Positions 24,739-36,502 of a DNA stretch of 45,574 nucleotides are shown piece by piece (position 1 is the first letter of the stretch; the number at the start of each line of letters is the position of its first letter). The notes below the pieces were generated by a model, which saw only the letters and a program-made list of their open reading frames with translations, made no database searches and had not been told where the DNA came from. Source of the stretch: Jaapia argillacea MUCL 33604 (Eukaryota; Basidiomycota; Agaricomycetes; Jaapiales; Jaapiaceae); NCBI GenBank assembly GCA_000697665.1, contig KL197718.1, forward strand, positions 514,354 through 559,927. Direction: 5' to 3'. Both the position numbers and the translations under genes were made by a program.

Positions 24739-25997
24739 ATGTCTCAAGTTCTTCCCCCCGGACTACCGAAATCGGTTGGTTAATTCACGCTTTACTGCCC
24801 CAGCGCAGGCGCTAATCAGTACCTGACGTTCAGTCCATCCCCTTGGGCTGCGTCGTAAAGACATCTCAGTTTCCCATTGGCCAAGGGTCATTTGCCAACG
24901 TTTACAAGGGCGATTATCACCATCCTTATTCTCGCCATGTAATACCTGTAGGTGGCATAGGTCAATCGTTAGCGTCTCGATACCATCTCGTTGTCAGGTT
25001 GCAATCAAAGTCCTGGTTAACGCCCATCTCCCTGGGGGCGAGAAATCATTGATAGTACGTAGAAGCTGATTCCAGTGTTTTAATTATTGGTTTTGATATT
25101 ATCGTTCAGCGGTTAAGAAGAGAAGCGTGGGCATGGGTACAATTGTCCCATCCCAACGTCGCTCCGTTCCTTGGACTTGCACAAGTCCACGGGCTTGCGT
25201 CAGATGGCCTTATCACTGATTGGGCTGAGTATGGCAACTTGCATCAGCATCTCAAAGAACAGGAATATACCAAAGAATGGTTGTGCCACTTTGTGGGTCA
25301 TTTTATTCCGATCCTAGAGGCTCTTGCTTTGCCTTTAACGTCTTTGATAGGTCAGAGGAATAGCTGGAGGTCTCGCCCACCTTCATTCGAGGAATGTCGT
25401 TCACGGAGATCTGAAACCAGTTCGTCGTTCCTCTTCGCGCTTCGCTGTCCTTGTTGATTAGGTCTCCTAGGATAATGTTCTTGTTCGCAAAGGGATGCAT
25501 GGCCCTTACGTTCAATTGACTGACTTCGGCCTCGCACGGATCATTGACTTCAGGGGTTACACGACCCATACACTGGGTCACTGCCGCTATCGCGCAGTGG
25601 AGCTCATGCACCTTTCTGATGAGAGTGAAAATGACACCGTCGACGGACAGTATTCGCTCACAAATCAATGTGACGTCTGGAGCTTTGCCATGCTATCCCT
25701 TGAGGTAAGAGCGCTTCCCTCTTATTTCGCCCGTCTTTTCTTGATTGTCTTGTAAAGGTCCTAAGTGGAAAATTACCATTTTGTCACTTCCCCACAACTA
25801 AATTGGCGCGATTGTTGCTCCAATTACAAGCGGCTCTGAAGATCGGTGACAGACCTCATCGAGAGGACCACAGCGCGTTGACAACTTGGTGTTGGGATAT
25901 ACTTTGCATCTGCTGGGAGGGAGATCCTTCCCGACGTCCCGACATGGACAGAGTAGTGGCATGGATGAACTCGGCTTCGAACCCTCCCCTGTTATGA
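24739..25997 (+). CDS. Protein kinase (TKL-like), intact motifs
   Basis: A predicted Ser/Thr or dual kinase of the expanded TKL-like families of Agaricomycetes. Seven exons give 307 aa: 24739-24774, 24834-24938, 24998-25054, 25110-25292, 25351-25419, 25471-25704 and 25758-25997. The protein is little more than a kinase domain. The glycine loop is IGQGSFANVYKG (about 26-37), the ATP lysine VAIK (Lys 51) and the helix C candidate RREAW. The catalytic loop is HGDLKPDN (Asp 147, Asn 152) and the metal motif DFG (168-170). RAVE takes the place of APE. A DVWSFAMLSLE helix F follows, and near the end SRRPDM. HGD instead of HRD is common in TKL kinases. The first exon is short and its donor (GTTGGT) is weak, so the start is uncertain. 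This is the only one of the three local paralogues that keeps all core residues. Confidence 0.82.
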
Positions 25998-26258
25998 ATC
26001 TCGCCGAGTGTTCATACAATTCTTGGATGGTGACTGTATCTATACCCTTGTATTCTTGAGCGTATGGCAGCCATTGAATTGTACTCTAGAAGTGTTCCGT
26101 GATCATATGATAGAAGTGCTGTGTAACTTAATATATTATCTCGTACTCCTTGGGCTCGGGAGGGTACGGCTAGATCCGTCAATCACGTGCTTCACAAAGT
26201 TTTCCTCCAAGTCAAGGATCTGCTCCTTTCATGCCAACACGTCCTCCGGTGAGGCAAG

Positions 26259-29580
<3,322 letters not shown>

Positions 29581-29824
29581 TAATATCGTGGATGGAAAGA
29601 CTGGGTATCCTTATCTGCATACTACTTTAGATCGTGACCATGTCGCGTGTACAAACCTTGGCTTGCAATAGCAATCAACTTGCTCAGGGATGATTCTCGA
29701 TTGAATGTTAAGTACATCCGCCGATGAGAACCTATCATAGTATAGTTGTCGCGGTGAAGTTGCGACCCTGGGTTTCGAAGGGTCGAAACGGAAATAGAGT
29801 GGATTCTCAAAACGAAACACTAAG

Positions 29825-31245
29825 TTAACTCGTCATGTCACTAACGCACTCCCAAGCTCCCTTAAGGTTCTCCTTCCACAACGTCACCTTGCCGTCGCCA
29901 CAACTTACAGCCAGAATGTTGCCAGCGAGACTCCAGGAGACCCGCCAGACGACGTCTGGAAACCTGCCAGGTGCAGCTCCTGCAGGGACTATGGACGCTG
30001 AAGATGGATCGAGGGCGGTCTTGACCCAAGGGGACTTTGGATTATCCTTGGTCCAGATAAGAACAGTCTTGTCCTGGCCCACGAAATAGTTTGTCACTGT
30101 GAAACGGCAGAACGAGAAGACTGACTCACTTGAGAAGCTGTTGCAATGTAACTTCTCGGAAGCCCAATGCTCGGCGCCCATGCCACATCTCGAACCCAAT
30201 CCGTGTGGCCCTCTAAGACCTCTTCCTCCACCCACGACTGATGATCTTCGTCAAACGCCCAGATTTTCACCAGATTGTCACATCCTGCGCTTGCGAATCG
30301 TTTTACCGTCTGGAGCTTTGGGGGGGTTTGAGAGTTTGGTTGGGGCATGATCAACGAACCAGGTTGCATGGCTGGAGCCCACGACACAGCATTACACCCG
30401 ATAGCGTGACCATTGAAGATATCCGCGCCCCACTGACCGTCGTCTGTGAAGAAGTGGATTAGTTGAGGCTCTTGATATGGGATGTGAGGAGCCGGAGAGG
30501 GAGCAAATGACGTCTGGCGACCAAAATGATACAAAGGATATCCAACGCGAGGCGGAAGTGAACTCACTTTTGAAGGTCAAAACGGATATTTTACCGTCAG
30601 ACGACGCGCATGCAAGGATTGCGCCGAGTTCGTGGGGTGCCCAAGACACTGAGTTCACTGGGGAGGGAGTAACATTACCTCGGTTGGTGTTTGCGCGACC
30701 TAAAGGTGTGTCGCACTCACCTGATGCAGTATGCAGAGTGTGCTCCTTGATCTTCGTCCAACCGCCTGCTCCAGGTCCGGCCCCCTGCTGCTCTTTCCAA
30801 ATCAAAACCTTCCCATCGTAGGAACAAGAAGCCAGAATATGGCCAAATTTAGGGTGGGCCCATGCAACCTGCCAGACAGGACCGGTGTGTCTGATATAAA
30901 GACGTCAAGATATGGTGGTATTGTTCAGGACGACCAACAAGTCACTCACCCCTTCAATGTTTGACTAGACGATCTCCTCGTTTCCCCTTCAACTACGTCA
31001 AATACTTTAACTGTCCGGTCAGATGAACATGTTGCGAGACGTTTGCCGTAGTAGTCCAATTGTGCATCGTGCTGGAGGGTTCATTGCTCTTCATACTTTG
31101 GAAAAGTCCAAGAAGTTGCAAGCACGTACGATCATGTCCTCATGAGAGGTTTCAATGGGGATGGGTTCACCCGCTGTTGCGGACGCCTGTAATCTATATC
31201 AGTCTCACTTTGATACATATGGAGGACGCTGGTTATGTTCACCAT
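29825..31245 (-). CDS. SEC13: SEC13, COPII coat and nuclear pore beta-propeller
   Basis: Sec13 pairs with Sec31 in the outer COPII coat, and with Nup145C/Nup84 in the nuclear pore; fungal Sec13 also serves in the SEA complex. Seven exons give 334 aa: 31245-31243, 31186-31130, 31071-30950, 30890-30721, 30657-30568, 30443-30130 and 30073-29825. The family N-terminus is clear ([25 protein letters not shown]). Further WD blades follow, with [43 protein letters not shown], then [15 protein letters not shown] and finally [25 protein letters not shown]. As modelled, exon 1 is only the ATG, followed by GTGAAC and joined to ASATAGEP. The alternative keeps five more residues (VNITS) with a poor donor. 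The gene is convergent with MEF1, with stop codons about 245 bp apart. Confidence 0.95.
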
Positions 31246-31762
31246 TGTGGACAAACTAGCGCGAAGATCGCAATGTGAGTATTGGGAAGCAAATGCTACT
31301 GATTGTGAAGAATGCCAAGTTCGTGGACACGTCAAGTTGATGTGTCGTGACGTGTGACACCACCCTGTCGGCGATCGCGACTCAGACTCATGCTCCTTCA
31401 TGCATCATGCTCACTCCCTCTTTCGGCATCTCACTACATGACAACGTGTCATACAGCTGCAAGTAGCTGCCGGTACTAGAGCGCTAAAGATTGAATTTAA
31501 ATACACGAGGAACACAGCTGGCTCAACTTATGCAATCCACGTTGTCAACCCTGCCTTCTTGCCACCTGTATCCCAAGAGCCCATTACTCCAATCCGCTCC
31601 AAGTTAGTAACATACGGTCCGTACCTTGCCTTTTAACACCCTCGAAATCTTCCGCACTGTTCGTGCATGGATCAATCTGACTCATACCCCAATTACCGGC
31701 TCTCGGTTCCTGGAATGTGACTTTGAAACAATCGGATCCTGGCGACTCTCGTAGTCAAAAGC
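31246..31762. promoter_or_regulatory. Divergent spacer between SEC13 and second kinase
   Basis: It separates two gene starts (517 bp) and so should hold both promoters. An ATG at 31669 opens a short frame that could be an upstream exon of the kinase (splicing at 31718 or so), but this is not required. No clear TATA element was found. Confidence 0.4.
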
Positions 31763-33108
31763 ATGGTTCTCGCTGAAGGTCTGGCAGGGACACCCCGTTC
31801 GCGTGTCTCCTTATCTCTTCTTCATACCCATTTCTTCTTTTCGATGTCGCTGTGCGACCTTTCATCCTCCGTTGAGAGACAGGGAGCTCATTGCTTGGCA
31901 TTGGGTGACTACGCTGACATCTTGAAAGCTTGCTGGACAGGAAAGGTGAAGCGAGAACCTCCATCTGTGAGCTTTAACACTTGTGGGTCGAGCTGCGCCG
32001 TTCCCTTACTTCATACCATCATACTATTTCAGCTCGTCATAAAGGCTTTGCGGGGTGTGAGTCCAGTACCCCAGGAGAGGGCACTTGTAGTCCAGGTATT
32101 TATCTCGACTCAAATCGACCCGTTACTGGAAAAGCTTTCATTTCCCGAACTTTAGAAACTCTCCGATCTCTTCGCCGTGTGGAAGCATGTTGACGACCTC
32201 CGTCACCCTTTCATTTCCCGATTTTTCGGCGTGGTCTACAACTGCAGCCCTCTACCATCTCCCGTATTGCCATTCTATCAGAACGGCAACGTCCTTTCGT
32301 ATCTGAAAGCCAATCCCTACGCTAATAAGATCCCTATCGTAGGCATCCTCATTCTTTGCCACAGTTGCCGTGCTGATTCCTTGTTGATACCTCTTTACAG
32401 CTCTCGCAGATTGCCTCGGCGCTGGAATACCTCCATAACCTGTCCGAGCCTATCGTTCATGGCAATCTGAAGGCAGTACGCACGTTTCCTCATATTAACA
32501 TCACTCCTTTATTGAATATCCCTTCTTGTTGTCAGTCCAATGTCATGATCACCGATTCTGGATCAGCCTGTATCGTGGATCTTGGTCTTTCCTCCGTAGT
32601 ATCAACGGCGAATTTCACTACGGCGAATATCGCCGGATCCTGCCGATGGATGGCGCCAGAAATCATGAATCCTCCTGACTTGGCCGACGACGATGACGAC
32701 TATCACATTCCGTTCACCACTGCCAGCGATGTTTATTCGTTTGGGATGACTGCCCTCGAGGTCATTAGCGCCTTTCTTCTCCTGCTATTATCTGCTAAAT
32801 AATCCTCGTCTTACCTCAAGTAGATCTTTACCGGAAAATACCCCTTTCACCATATCCGATTGGACAGTGTAGTCATCGCGCAGGTAACGCGAGGGCAGCG
32901 CCCACGCCGTCCGGAGGATGTAACTATTCCAAATTACCTCTGGGAGATGCTCGTCTCTTGCTGGATGGCCGATCCGGATCTGCGTCCCAGCATCCACGAG
33001 TTGGGAGTTGAGTTGTTTCGTTCACAGGCGCTGAGGTCCACTCCCCTCTCTCATTTTTATGGCCCGTCAACGTGGTATCCTCGATGTCGGCTTCCTCTCT
33101 TTTTATGA
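31763..33108 (+). CDS. Kinase-like protein lacking catalytic Asp (pseudokinase)
   Basis: A TKL-like kinase fold, predicted inactive. Six exons give 344 aa: 31763-31966, 32033-32095, 32156-32338, 32401-32475, 32536-32760 and 32824-33108. The glycine loop is replaced by LGDYADILKACWTG. The ATP lysine remains (LVIK, Lys 72). The catalytic loop reads HGNLKASN, so the proton-accepting Asp is Asn (172) while the metal-binding Asn stays (177). DFG is DLG (190-192). MAPE, DVYSFGMTALE and LRPSIHELG are kept, so the C-lobe fold looks sound. Exon lengths and the intron after HGNLKA match the paralogues at 24739 and 34956. All exon joins keep frame with no stop, which argues against random decay. It could be a signalling scaffold or an early pseudogene. 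The start is uncertain; upstream ATG at 31669 is possible. Confidence 0.75.
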
Positions 33109-34416
33109 ACCATTCTTCATTTAACTGCTCGAATTTCTATTATAATGTCCACCTTGCCCGCTTCGCGTTGACTCCTTTTTACCTATGTATTGCTCTTCAA
33201 AACCAGACCCTGTGCCAGTACCTGTGCACCTTGGAACCTTGCCTCGCATGGTTAGGGTTCAGTACGTTCAGTCTGTACCCCACCATTGGAAATGTCACTT
33301 GTCGTCGTCGAGCTCGTGGTTAAGTTGACCTTTCAAACGACCCAAATTCAGTAAGCGCCGAGTGGCTTCGCCAAATGCAAAGAGTCCTTAAGCTTCCTTA
33401 AGGCGCTCAAACAAACCTTACTGTATATAGTCGCCGGTTTGCCTCCGAATCGATTGTTTTCACAGCCCTTCTTTGATGAGAAATTCGTTTGGAACCTCAG
33501 TATGTTACTTACAGTGTTTTGCATATGAAACTGGAATCGTGAATTCATGAAATCTGTTTGCTTCTGTTTCGAATTGCCTTGTATGGGGTACCTCCGCCAC
33601 ACAATTACCCGATAAGGCAATAAATAATAGATCCAAATAACTTTCTGCGAAAGTGCGAGGACATGTACTGTGGGTCCCAGTCCAGACGCCACCACACACC
33701 GAACCGCCGCGTCAAACGATCTTTCCCAGAAAGGCAACTCCCGTATTATCGCCGACGCGATTTCTGTCATGCCTAACACACTTTTCGGGGATGGATTTGG
33801 GACCCCCTGGGCTTCATGTCCATTTAAAAGTATTTGGATACAAATTAGTTATCAATAAATCGATTTTTTTTGGAGAATCTCAGGTTCATATATGGGGGTG
33901 GTGGCAAATTTTCAATTCATTCGAAGTACATGATATATATGTGGGTTGAGAGGGGTGATGATGAGATGTGGGTGGGAGAGGAGGCAGTGAGCTTGGGGGA
34001 GGAGGATGAGGATGTGGTGGTGGTGGGGGTGGATGGGAGGAAGAGTTGGAAAATATTGGAGAACTGGAAGGGTTACAGGGAGAGTGAAATAGGGAGAAAA
34101 AGAGGTGGAGGGCTACAGGTAAGAAGGGGGGGAGGGGAGAAGAGAGGAGGATGGGGACAGATCCAATTGAGTGGACACACCTACGAGACTGGGGTGGCTC
34201 CATCCTCGGACCCATCGACAATCCAACACGACCAGTACCGCGAATTCCCACGACTGGTCCATACGCGCTCACGCTCTCGGTAGATCGCCCGAGCGCACCA
34301 TTTGGTCGCTGCTGCTGGTCCAGTGTGCGGCGGGCGGGCATACCAGCCGCGAGATATGTGGCGACGAGGATGGCGGTGACGGGCGCAACGAGCGAGAGGT
34401 AGACGCGAGGGTGACG

Positions 34417-34464
34417 GGCAAAGGCAAAGGCAAAGGCAAAGGCAAAGGCAAAGGCAAAGGCAAA
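34417..34464. repeat. Hexanucleotide microsatellite (GGCAAA)8
   Basis: Eight perfect copies of GGCAAA lie head to tail, followed by the variants GGCGGA and GGCGAA. The unit is a multiple of three, so every frame stays open across it: Gly-Lys repeats on +, and Phe-Ala, Leu-Pro or Cys-Leu repeats on minus. This explains the long open frames around it. None of them is supported as a gene. Confidence 0.95.
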
Positions 34465-34625
34465 GGCGGAGGCGAAGGGGGACGAGGCGACAACGACGAC
34501 GAAGAGAACCAAGCGAGCACAGCGAGAAGCTGATGACGAGGACGTCGAGGTGTGATGATGGCCATTTGCCGTTTATGGGAAGGGCGGAGATCTGGAGGGA
34601 GATGTCGAGCGCCAACGGCGCGGGA

Positions 34626-34654
34626 AATTCTCTGGAGGAGTTCTCCAGAGAATT
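34626..34654. repeat. Perfect 12-bp inverted repeat (hairpin)
   Basis: AATTCTCTGGAG at 34626-34637 is followed after GAGTT by its exact reverse complement CTCCAGAGAATT at 34643-34654. The hairpin would have 12 pairs and a 5-nt loop. It lies about 300 bp upstream of the third kinase gene. No T-run follows, and eukaryotic Pol II does not use such terminators. Confidence 0.85.
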
Positions 34655-34955
34655 CTCTCCCAGTGGGTTATGCTTTCTGGAAAGTGCGATTCCAGCAAGA
34701 CCCGGTACTATGTACATACTTGGGTCAGCAGTGATCGGGGGCCCGCAGTCAGCACGCCACGGTCCTGGTTCCTGAGCGCTTGAGTGGTGATGGCCTAATC
34801 CAAAATAGGGCGATAGAGGGCATCATGAGTTGTCCACGACCCTATTCGGTTGGATCGATGTGAACTGTCGCACTGCATGTTAGTAACCGAGCGCTTGCTT
34901 ATCTGGATAAATGCTGTACTGCAGAGCCTTTGACGACACCCTCACCACCCATGCC

Positions 34956-36502
34956 ATGTCGAAACTATTCTCATTTTTTTGGCCCCCCCGGGCTGTCCTA
35001 GACTCCGTCGATCTTGTACGTGGCCATAGAGTTGGAAGAGCCTTGCTAACATGGTCTGCAGGATCAGGATGGTCGATTGGAGACAGTTGGAGATCACTAC
35101 GAAGCGATAGGGGAACACTCAGATGTTTGGGCGGGAGCGTATCGCGAGGCCGTCGGGGCTTCTCAAGTCACAAGGGTCCTTGGTATTGGCATCGATGTCC
35201 CCGATCTTGATGGCTTATCGACTTTCAGGTTGCAATCAAAGTCCTTCGAGGAGGCTCTCCCAGTAATACGCAGCTAATCAGGAAGTTGCAGAAGGTAGAT
35301 CTCTTCCTACGAACGGCCTACACCAGCTGCGAAGTGCTTTCTGCTGTAGAACAGGGGCACAGCACTGACTCTCAGTTCTGTGCTTTTCCGCACACTACTT
35401 CAGATATCTGATTCTCGATCGATCATTATAGTTCCTTGACGAACATGGGTCCCGCTGGCGCCGTCTAAACCACAATAATGTCGGCGAATTCATTGGGATC
35501 AGCAACAAGTACGGATATATGCCTGCGATCGTCCTACGCTATTATGAATATGGGAATATCATCAAGTATCTCGAAAATCACAGTGGAATCTCCGATCTCG
35601 ATCGACTTGGTTTTGTTAGTTTCGAAAGCTTCCCCCTCTGTTGCTGTATCTTCATATGTTCAATTCCGCAGATTTTCGACATTGCGGCCGGATTGGCATA
35701 CCTGCATGGTGAACAGATTATTCACGCTGATCTCCGGGGTGTGAGTCTCGTAGTTTCGATGGCTCATATCATCCCCAGTTCGATTGGTTTTCTAGGCAAA
35801 CATTCTGATGGACTCCCGTGGCAACCCCCGCATCTGCGACTACGAGCTTGCTCTCATCATTGAACAGTCGGAATTCACTTCCGCGAAGACTGTCGGGAAC
35901 TGCCGCTGGGCGGCTCCAGAGGTTCTCAACCCACCGGATGATTGGGACGAGGAGCAAGAATTACTTCCCCCGTTTACATTCGAGAGTGACGTATACGCCT
36001 TTTCAATGACTGTCATTGAGGTAGGCAGTGTTAGTACCTCAACGACCGGTTGTTCGAATGACTTTGACCCGCTTTTACAGATCGCCACATTGAAAGTTCC
36101 GTTTTCCAATCGCAAAAATGACAGCTCAGTGATTTTTGCAGTCCTCAATCGCCAACGTCCTCATATCCCCCCCTTTGTTGCGGAGCATAACGTTTTGCAT
36201 ACGCTTATCCAGGAGTGTTGGGACCAGAGTCCGTCTCTGCGCCCTTCGTCCAGCAGAGTTTCCGAACGTCTCGAGGTATACCGGCGCCCGAGCCAGCAAC
36301 AGGTATGCATCTTCGACAGGGTTGATTTTCAACCCGCTGACCCTAAATGCAGAAGCAAGAAGGCGGTTTGCTTCAGCGGCAAGCTTTTTCCCTTCAGCCA
36401 TTTAACACAACCATAACTCAAGTTTTGACAGGATCTTTCACTTATTCGTCTGAGGCCTGGTGCATTCCGAGCCAAACGTGGGTACGGCCAAGTCTCATCT
36501 GA
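34956..36502 (+). CDS. Kinase-like protein with broken DFG (pseudokinase)
   Basis: A third TKL-like paralogue. Eight exons give 359 aa: 34956-35015, 35062-35166, 35229-35294, 35432-35614, 35672-35740, 35796-36020, 36081-36302 and 36353-36502. The leader QDGRLETVGDHYEAIGEHSDVW takes the place of the glycine loop, which has lost its glycines. VAIK keeps the ATP lysine (59). The catalytic loop is HADLRGAN, with Asp 158 and Asn 163 present but Lys changed to Arg. DFG is replaced by DYE (176-178), so magnesium handling should be poor. APE is kept (WAAPEVLNPPDD), as are the helix F block DVYAFSMTVIE and LRPSSSR. A Gln/Thr-rich tail of about 50 residues follows the last intron; reading through that intron gives an earlier stop at 36416. 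ATG 34911 in the same frame is an alternative start. Function is inferred only from fold. Confidence 0.72.

Follow-up and report, generated by a model that had tools for sequence, protein, structure and literature searches.

FunK1 (PF17667) is a kinase family typical of mushroom-forming fungi. TKL-type kinases are also known to have expanded in the Agaricomycetes (PMC3937382; PMC2838846, on Laccaria bicolor) and, as these sources describe them, they share several traits with the family reported here: there are many TKLs per genome, most of them have no extra domains, a proline is present in the GXR motif of subdomain X, and recent expansions have taken place at the level of the species. The FslK members of that expansion are described as mostly keeping the residues needed for catalysis (PMC3937382), whereas a large minority of the genes described below do not. 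Among the matches listed for the open-licence literature on fungal pseudokinases, Agaricomycete TKL, FslK and non-RD kinases, no title dealt with pseudokinases in a mushroom TKL-type family.

Plant non-RD kinases are tied to immune receptors. One of them, the receptor kinase EFR, activates BAK1 without catalysis; its kinase-inactive D849N form still signals, and evidence has been presented that it supports the αC helix of its partner (PMC11259431). HER3 (ErbB3) allosterically activates HER2 and pairs with EGFR (PMC8141879).

Three kinase genes and their active sites

The window (the whole stretch of 45,574 nucleotides that was analysed) lies on contig C10 of the 43.7 Mb genome of Jaapia argillacea and contains three real kinase genes, named here K1, K2 and K3, all on one strand and within 11.8 kb (Table 1). 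Their models were built by eye and found again by spliced profile alignment, for which the first profile was made from K1, K2 and K3 themselves and a later one from the wider family; the start codons, the first exons and the last exon of K3 are predicted. All 18 introns of the three genes are in phase 0 and bounded by GT-AG, the models are free of stops and frameshifts, and they bear out the first-pass annotation as to exon lengths, motifs and strand.

Table 1. Features of the window, with positions counted from its first nucleotide
Feature	Position	Strand	Exons	Exon lengths (nt)	Remarks
K1, TKL-type kinase gene	24739-25997	+	24739-24774, 24834-24938, 24998-25054, 25110-25292, 25351-25419, 25471-25704, 25758-25997	36, 105, 57, 183, 69, 234, 240	7 exons, 307 aa
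Elongation factor G gene, between K1 and K2	26253-29630, approximate	+			Bounds from stop-to-stop ORFs
WD40 protein gene, between K1 and K2	29825-30904, approximate	-			WD40 domain
K2, pseudokinase gene by residues	31763-33108	+	31763-31966, 32033-32095, 32156-32338, 32401-32475, 32536-32760, 32824-33108	204, 63, 183, 75, 225, 285	6 exons, 344 aa
GGCAAA-type simple repeat	~34418-34470				In the gap between K2 and K3, within open frames on both strands
K3, degenerate kinase gene	34956-36502	+	34956-35015, 35062-35166, 35229-35294, 35432-35614, 35672-35740, 35796-36020, 36081-36302, 36353-36502	60, 105, 66, 183, 69, 225, 222, 150	8 exons, 359 aa
DDE superfamily endonuclease (transposase-like) fragment, PF13358	44283-44840	-

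PF07714 matched across the kinase domain of each gene (E = 2.2e-37 in K1, 5.5e-36 in K2 and 1.6e-37 in K3). Among sequences of solved structure, for which K1 and K2 were searched, the best matches were EGFR and RAF for K1, and EGFR, TNNI3K and roco4 for K2. FunK1 is another kinase family that is numerous in this genome (66 exon-level matches to PF17667, a few of them also at PF07714 places), but K1, K2 and K3 lie outside it, with no PF17667 match at E 0.001.

K1 reads GQGSFA, VAIK, the αC Glu, HGDLKP, DN and DFG, with AVE replacing APE; this is the full catalytic set on a non-RD (HGD) loop, and from these residues K1 is probably an active Ser/Thr kinase. K2 reads VIK, HGNLKA, SN, DLG and APE, that is, HGN replaces HRD and a Leu occupies the place of the αC Glu, while the VAIK Lys is kept. 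If a pseudokinase is defined by the loss of at least one of the VAIK Lys, the HRD Asp and the DFG Asp, K2 is one through its HGN and, judged by its residues, a convincing one. In having Asn for the HRD Asp, in the loss of the αC Glu and in the retention of the VAIK Lys and the DxG Asp, K2 resembles HER3, which carries matching substitutions; the αC residue is Leu in K2 and His in HER3. The two proteins differ in kind, since HER3 is a receptor tyrosine kinase and K2 is a small fungal protein in which only the kinase domain was matched.

K3 (VAIK, HADLRG, AN, DYE in place of DFG, and APE) has all three of the defining residues and has lost the DFG Gly and the αC Glu instead. The place of the αC Glu is taken by His when the alignment is read without a gap up to the following Trp, and a Glu stands one residue earlier; a reading in which K3 keeps the αC Glu was rejected because it needs an alignment gap. 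Most probably K3 has little or no kinase activity and took a path of its own. The claim of the first-pass annotation that only K1 keeps every catalytic residue is supported in that K1 looks active, K2 is a pseudokinase by its residues and K3 is degenerate.

These retained residues invite the proposal that K3 is an active kinase, and perhaps K2 as well, with an unusual active site in which residues have migrated or been substituted. K3 still has the VAIK Lys, the Asp of HAD, the Asn and the Asp with which DYE begins, a Glu stands next to the αC place, and Arg is often found instead of the HxDxK Lys within the family (17 of 47 genes); some pseudoenzymes, moreover, may have migrated residues (PMC10211241). 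However, K2 is without its catalytic base and its αC Glu at the same time, and K3 is without both the DFG Gly and the αC Glu, so that activity of this kind is considered improbable.

A family defined by its introns

The first-pass annotation had taken the common gene structure of K1, K2 and K3, above all an exon of exactly 183 nt, as the mark of three duplicates, and this structure was followed through the genome. The candidates were the PF07714 matches (among the matches listed) together with matches to K1, K2 and K3, which gave 269 match starts in 206 clusters and 176 stretches; the first 60 stretches (all on C1-C9 and the first three on C10) were analysed, plus 10 picked as close kin of K1-K3. 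The family was defined by the presence of at least two of the common phase-0 introns, so that the sharing of introns is partly a matter of definition, and the spliced models were obtained with a custom profile method, itself biased toward the intron pattern it has learned, although the initial profile, made from K1-K3 alone, already gave the intron set in 43 genes.

In this way 49 family genes were reconstructed, K1-K3 included (47 in the main spliced profile search and two later). Phase-0 introns at profile positions 26, 47, 105, 128 and 199 constitute the family set: the intron at 128, after HxDLKP, is present in 47 of the 49 genes, that at 105 in 46, and that at 199 or 196, at the end of the DFG exon, in 44, and in all the genes but one (48/49) at least three of the five positions are occupied, to within one place. 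K1 and K2 show the whole set, and in K3 each of the five introns lies no more than one position away. Scores separate the family (257-461) from 44 other kinase matches (at most 234; four of these are second copies of a locus), of which 30 have introns and 2 share one of the five positions.

The exon lengths are common property as well. The exon that follows the 183-nt one measures 69 or 75 nt in 37 of 43 family genes; the 183-nt exon itself has that length in 7 of the 34 measurable genes, K1-K3 among them, and 174 nt in 12. Within it, the His of the HP/HN motif lies at codon 13 in K1, 16 in K2 and 13 in K3, and the GN motif at codons 41, 43 and 40, followed by 18, 16 and 19 codons, respectively. 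Different insertions and deletions thus add up to the same length, and the equal exon was rejected as a sign of recent common origin. Since the intron set is common to 49 genes, the structure marks the TKL-type family and not the trio, and no gene structure private to K1-K3 was found. K1, K2 and K3 belong to a fungal TKL-type family that is large, spread over the genome and characterised by a non-RD HGD loop and fixed phase-0 introns.

With regard to its affiliation, the proline at the fourth place of GXR(L/M), a criterion taken from PMC3937382, is present in all three genes (GDRP in K1, GQRP in K2 and RQRP in K3, the last without the first Gly), and the residues that FslK members are described as keeping for catalysis are found in K1, not in K2 and in part in K3. 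The family may be placed either in FslK or in the fungal TKL clade of the same source.

Two further observations concern members elsewhere in the genome. One is a densely packed, young group of family genes at C4:1418275-1557503 (L034-L039). The other concerns the closely related L070 and L071, on contigs C10 and C11, in both of which the intron following the DFG exon starts with GC and not GT, plausibly as a GC splice donor; this would account for the frameshift in the model of L071, which was rejected as a sign of decay.

Catalytic residues have been lost in many members. Seven residues were scored (the VAIK Lys, the αC Glu, the HRD Asp, the Lys and the Asn that follow it, and the DFG Asp and Gly), and all seven are kept in 19 of 47 genes. 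The HRD Arg is replaced by Gly in 43 of the 47, which makes the family mostly non-RD; HGD-type loops were counted in 45 of the 49 members. The DFG Asp is changed in 10 of 47 (to Gly in 8), the HRD Asp in 6 (with one gene unread), and the αC Glu is kept in 38, K3 being read as His. On C1-C9, 19 of 32 genes have the three core residues and 12 lack at least one (12 of the 31 that could be scored, one being unscored); over all 49 genes the core is intact in 32 and damaged in 16, again with one unscored. On a tree built with the catalytic columns masked, and with 46 scorable genes, parsimony requires at least 7 changes of core state, some of which could be reversals, 3 changes of the HRD Asp and 7 of the DFG Asp; the minimum for the αC Glu is 6, with K3 counted as Glu. 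As catalytic loss is this common, there is nothing remarkable in finding two degenerate kinases next to an active one; K2 and K3 are two cases among many, and K3 even passes as intact when only the three core residues are considered.

In the wider group of K2 and K3 the αC residue is Leu in K2, L070, L071 and L072, Ala in L075, Gln in L069 and His in K3. The Glu is thus lost in seven members and kept in the other two, L076 and L077; the idea of a single basal loss was dropped because these two keep it and the branching is weak.

Relationships and selection

The first tree was built from 47 family genes and 5 kinases from outside the family, 52 rows in all. In it, K2 groups with L070 (C10:403k) and L071 (C11:1043k), and K3 with L069 (C10:308k), each with support of 100/99; K2 and K3 fall together in a set of eight genes that also contains L072, L075 and L076 (96/90), while K1 belongs to a different set of eight (95/91). 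The masked tree, to which L077 and L078 were added, retains the groupings of K2 and of K3 (100/99 each) and gives sets of nine genes for K1 (99/96) and, with weaker support, for K2 and K3 (80/92). K2 and K3 are 55% and 53% identical to their closest relatives elsewhere, as against 36% between K2 and K3 and 27% between K1 and K2. These relatives are the closest found in a sample that covers C1-C9 and chosen loci beyond; nearer ones may exist on the other contigs, although the genome-wide searches should show them as exon matches. With all residues of the 52-row tree, the AU test rejects a clade of K1, K2 and K3 (p-AU 8.4e-6, at a cost of 144 log-likelihood units) and also an exclusive pair of K2 and K3 (p-AU 4.8e-6, 92 units). 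K2 and K3 are more closely related to one another than either is to K1, without forming a pair, and both sets may share a branch above.

These results bear on the idea that K1, K2 and K3 are products of local duplication and form a functional set, in which K2 and K3 regulate K1 allosterically or as decoys. The arrangement is suggestive, with three genes on one strand in 11.8 kb, one exon plan, and one active kinase beside two degenerate ones. But the AU tests speak against the origin that it supposes, the exon plan is family-wide and its equal 183-nt exon a product of different indels, and proximity alone carries little weight on a contig that holds 10 further reconstructed members (L066, L067, two in L068, L069, L070, L072, L073, L075 and L078). 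Both the tree and the gene structure led to the rejection of the local trio; no link of K2 or K3 to K1 as a partner emerged from the analysis, and a local regulatory set is very improbable. What survives of the earlier view, in which shared structure indicated duplicates, is that the three are homologous kinases; a local duplicate family is contradicted by the AU tests, the 49-gene intron set and the closer relatives elsewhere.

The intervening genes had been read in the same annotation as dispersing the three duplicates, and this is true of one interval. Between K1 and K2 lie an elongation factor G gene, presumably MEF1, in which GTP_EFTU_D2, EFG_III and EFG_IV were found in two of the ORF pieces, and a WD40 gene taken to be SEC13, with one piece above the WD40 cut-off and the other below it and no SEC13-specific model among its domain matches. 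K2 and K3, by contrast, are adjacent genes separated by 1.85 kb.

Selection was assessed in 32 gene pairs with dS under 0.9, which share genes and are therefore not independent. The lowest dN/dS of the 32 belongs to L070-L071, both HGN genes (0.18, interval 0.11-0.31; dS 0.32, dN 0.059). Purifying selection is acting on L070 and L071, so that at least these two still make a useful protein. Since theirs is the lowest ratio, K2 is probably a maintained pseudokinase, although the value is that of its two sisters, the dS of K2 and K3 being saturated against their nearest kin. K2 compared with L070 and L071 gives pS 0.81-0.83 and pN 0.29-0.31, third positions having changed most; the picture is similar for K3 against L069 (pS 0.78, pN 0.33). 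In all three HGN genes the Asn codon at the catalytic place is AAT and the Leu codon CTC, and synonymous change therefore adds no proof of selection at those two sites.

Of the nine pairs in which both members have lost core residues, eight have dN/dS intervals below 1. In a four-gene lineage with GLG or SLA for DFG (in L034-L039), the six pairs give 0.33-0.37, whereas L055-L056, both degenerate, give 0.89 (0.57-1.41). Some dead lineages are thus constrained and at least one looks relaxed; L055 and L056 (C8:374609-393684) are a young pair and a candidate for decay in progress.

The question arises whether K2 and K3 are themselves functionless duplicates, decaying in the birth-and-death turnover of an expanded family. 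Turnover is visible in L055-L056, spliced models contain stops in L038, one L039 gene and L041 and frameshifts in one L036 gene, one L015 gene and L078, and the branch of K3 is longer than that of its partner L069 (0.55 vs 0.30). However, the frames of K2 and K3 are open and their GT-AG borders kept despite saturated synonymous divergence. In neutral simulations at 0.15 changes per site, 5 of 200 replicates were free of stops for K2 and 1 of 200 for K3; at 0.3 changes per site or more there were none in 200 for either. The constraint on the sisters of K2 argues in the same direction, and an open frame after saturating divergence likewise points to a useful protein in K2. Decay of both genes is accordingly held to be quite improbable. 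Relaxed selection in the second and third genes had been named beforehand as a result that would tell against a functional set; it is not seen in the sisters of K2, and the synonymous sites of K2 and K3 themselves are saturated.

A lineage without the catalytic base

The explanation that best accommodates these observations, and that is considered likely, is membership of a large family without a co-evolved local trio, K2 belonging to a constrained HGN lineage and K3 being a degenerate kinase on a separate path. The lineage of K2 is an older one of three genes, without the catalytic Asp and the αC Glu but still with the Lys of the ATP site and the DxG Asp. In K3 the losses are those of the DFG Gly and the αC Glu; its HAD Asp and its Asn remain, as does the first Asp of DYE.

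What K2 may do is a more tentative matter. It would bind nucleotide weakly or not at all, would not transfer phosphate, and would owe its effect to its fold, serving some active member of the family, not necessarily K1, as a scaffold or an allosteric partner; this mechanism is plausible, at rather less than an even chance. EFR works on the same principle, and on a non-RD kinase domain, but it is a plant LRR receptor kinase that is itself active (PMC11259431), and K1-K3 have no matched receptor part.

A broader proposal is that the whole TKL-type family is a nursery of pseudokinases, with at least seven changes of core state and with several dead lineages, among them that of K2 with its HGN and the four-gene GLG/SLA lineage without the DFG Asp, under purifying selection comparable to that on members with an intact core. 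It would then be a fungal counterpart of the plant non-RD receptor kinases that act without catalysis, and K2 an allosteric regulator of active family members; as a whole, this proposal is speculative and on balance unlikely.

The probably maintained HGN lineage is the part worth following. Little is settled about what expanded TKL-type kinases do in mushrooms. Should many members of such a family prove catalytically dead and yet conserved, its function should be sought in binding and allostery and not in substrates alone, and the lineage of K2, with three genes, a lost catalytic base and constraint measured on two of them, offers a compact test case.
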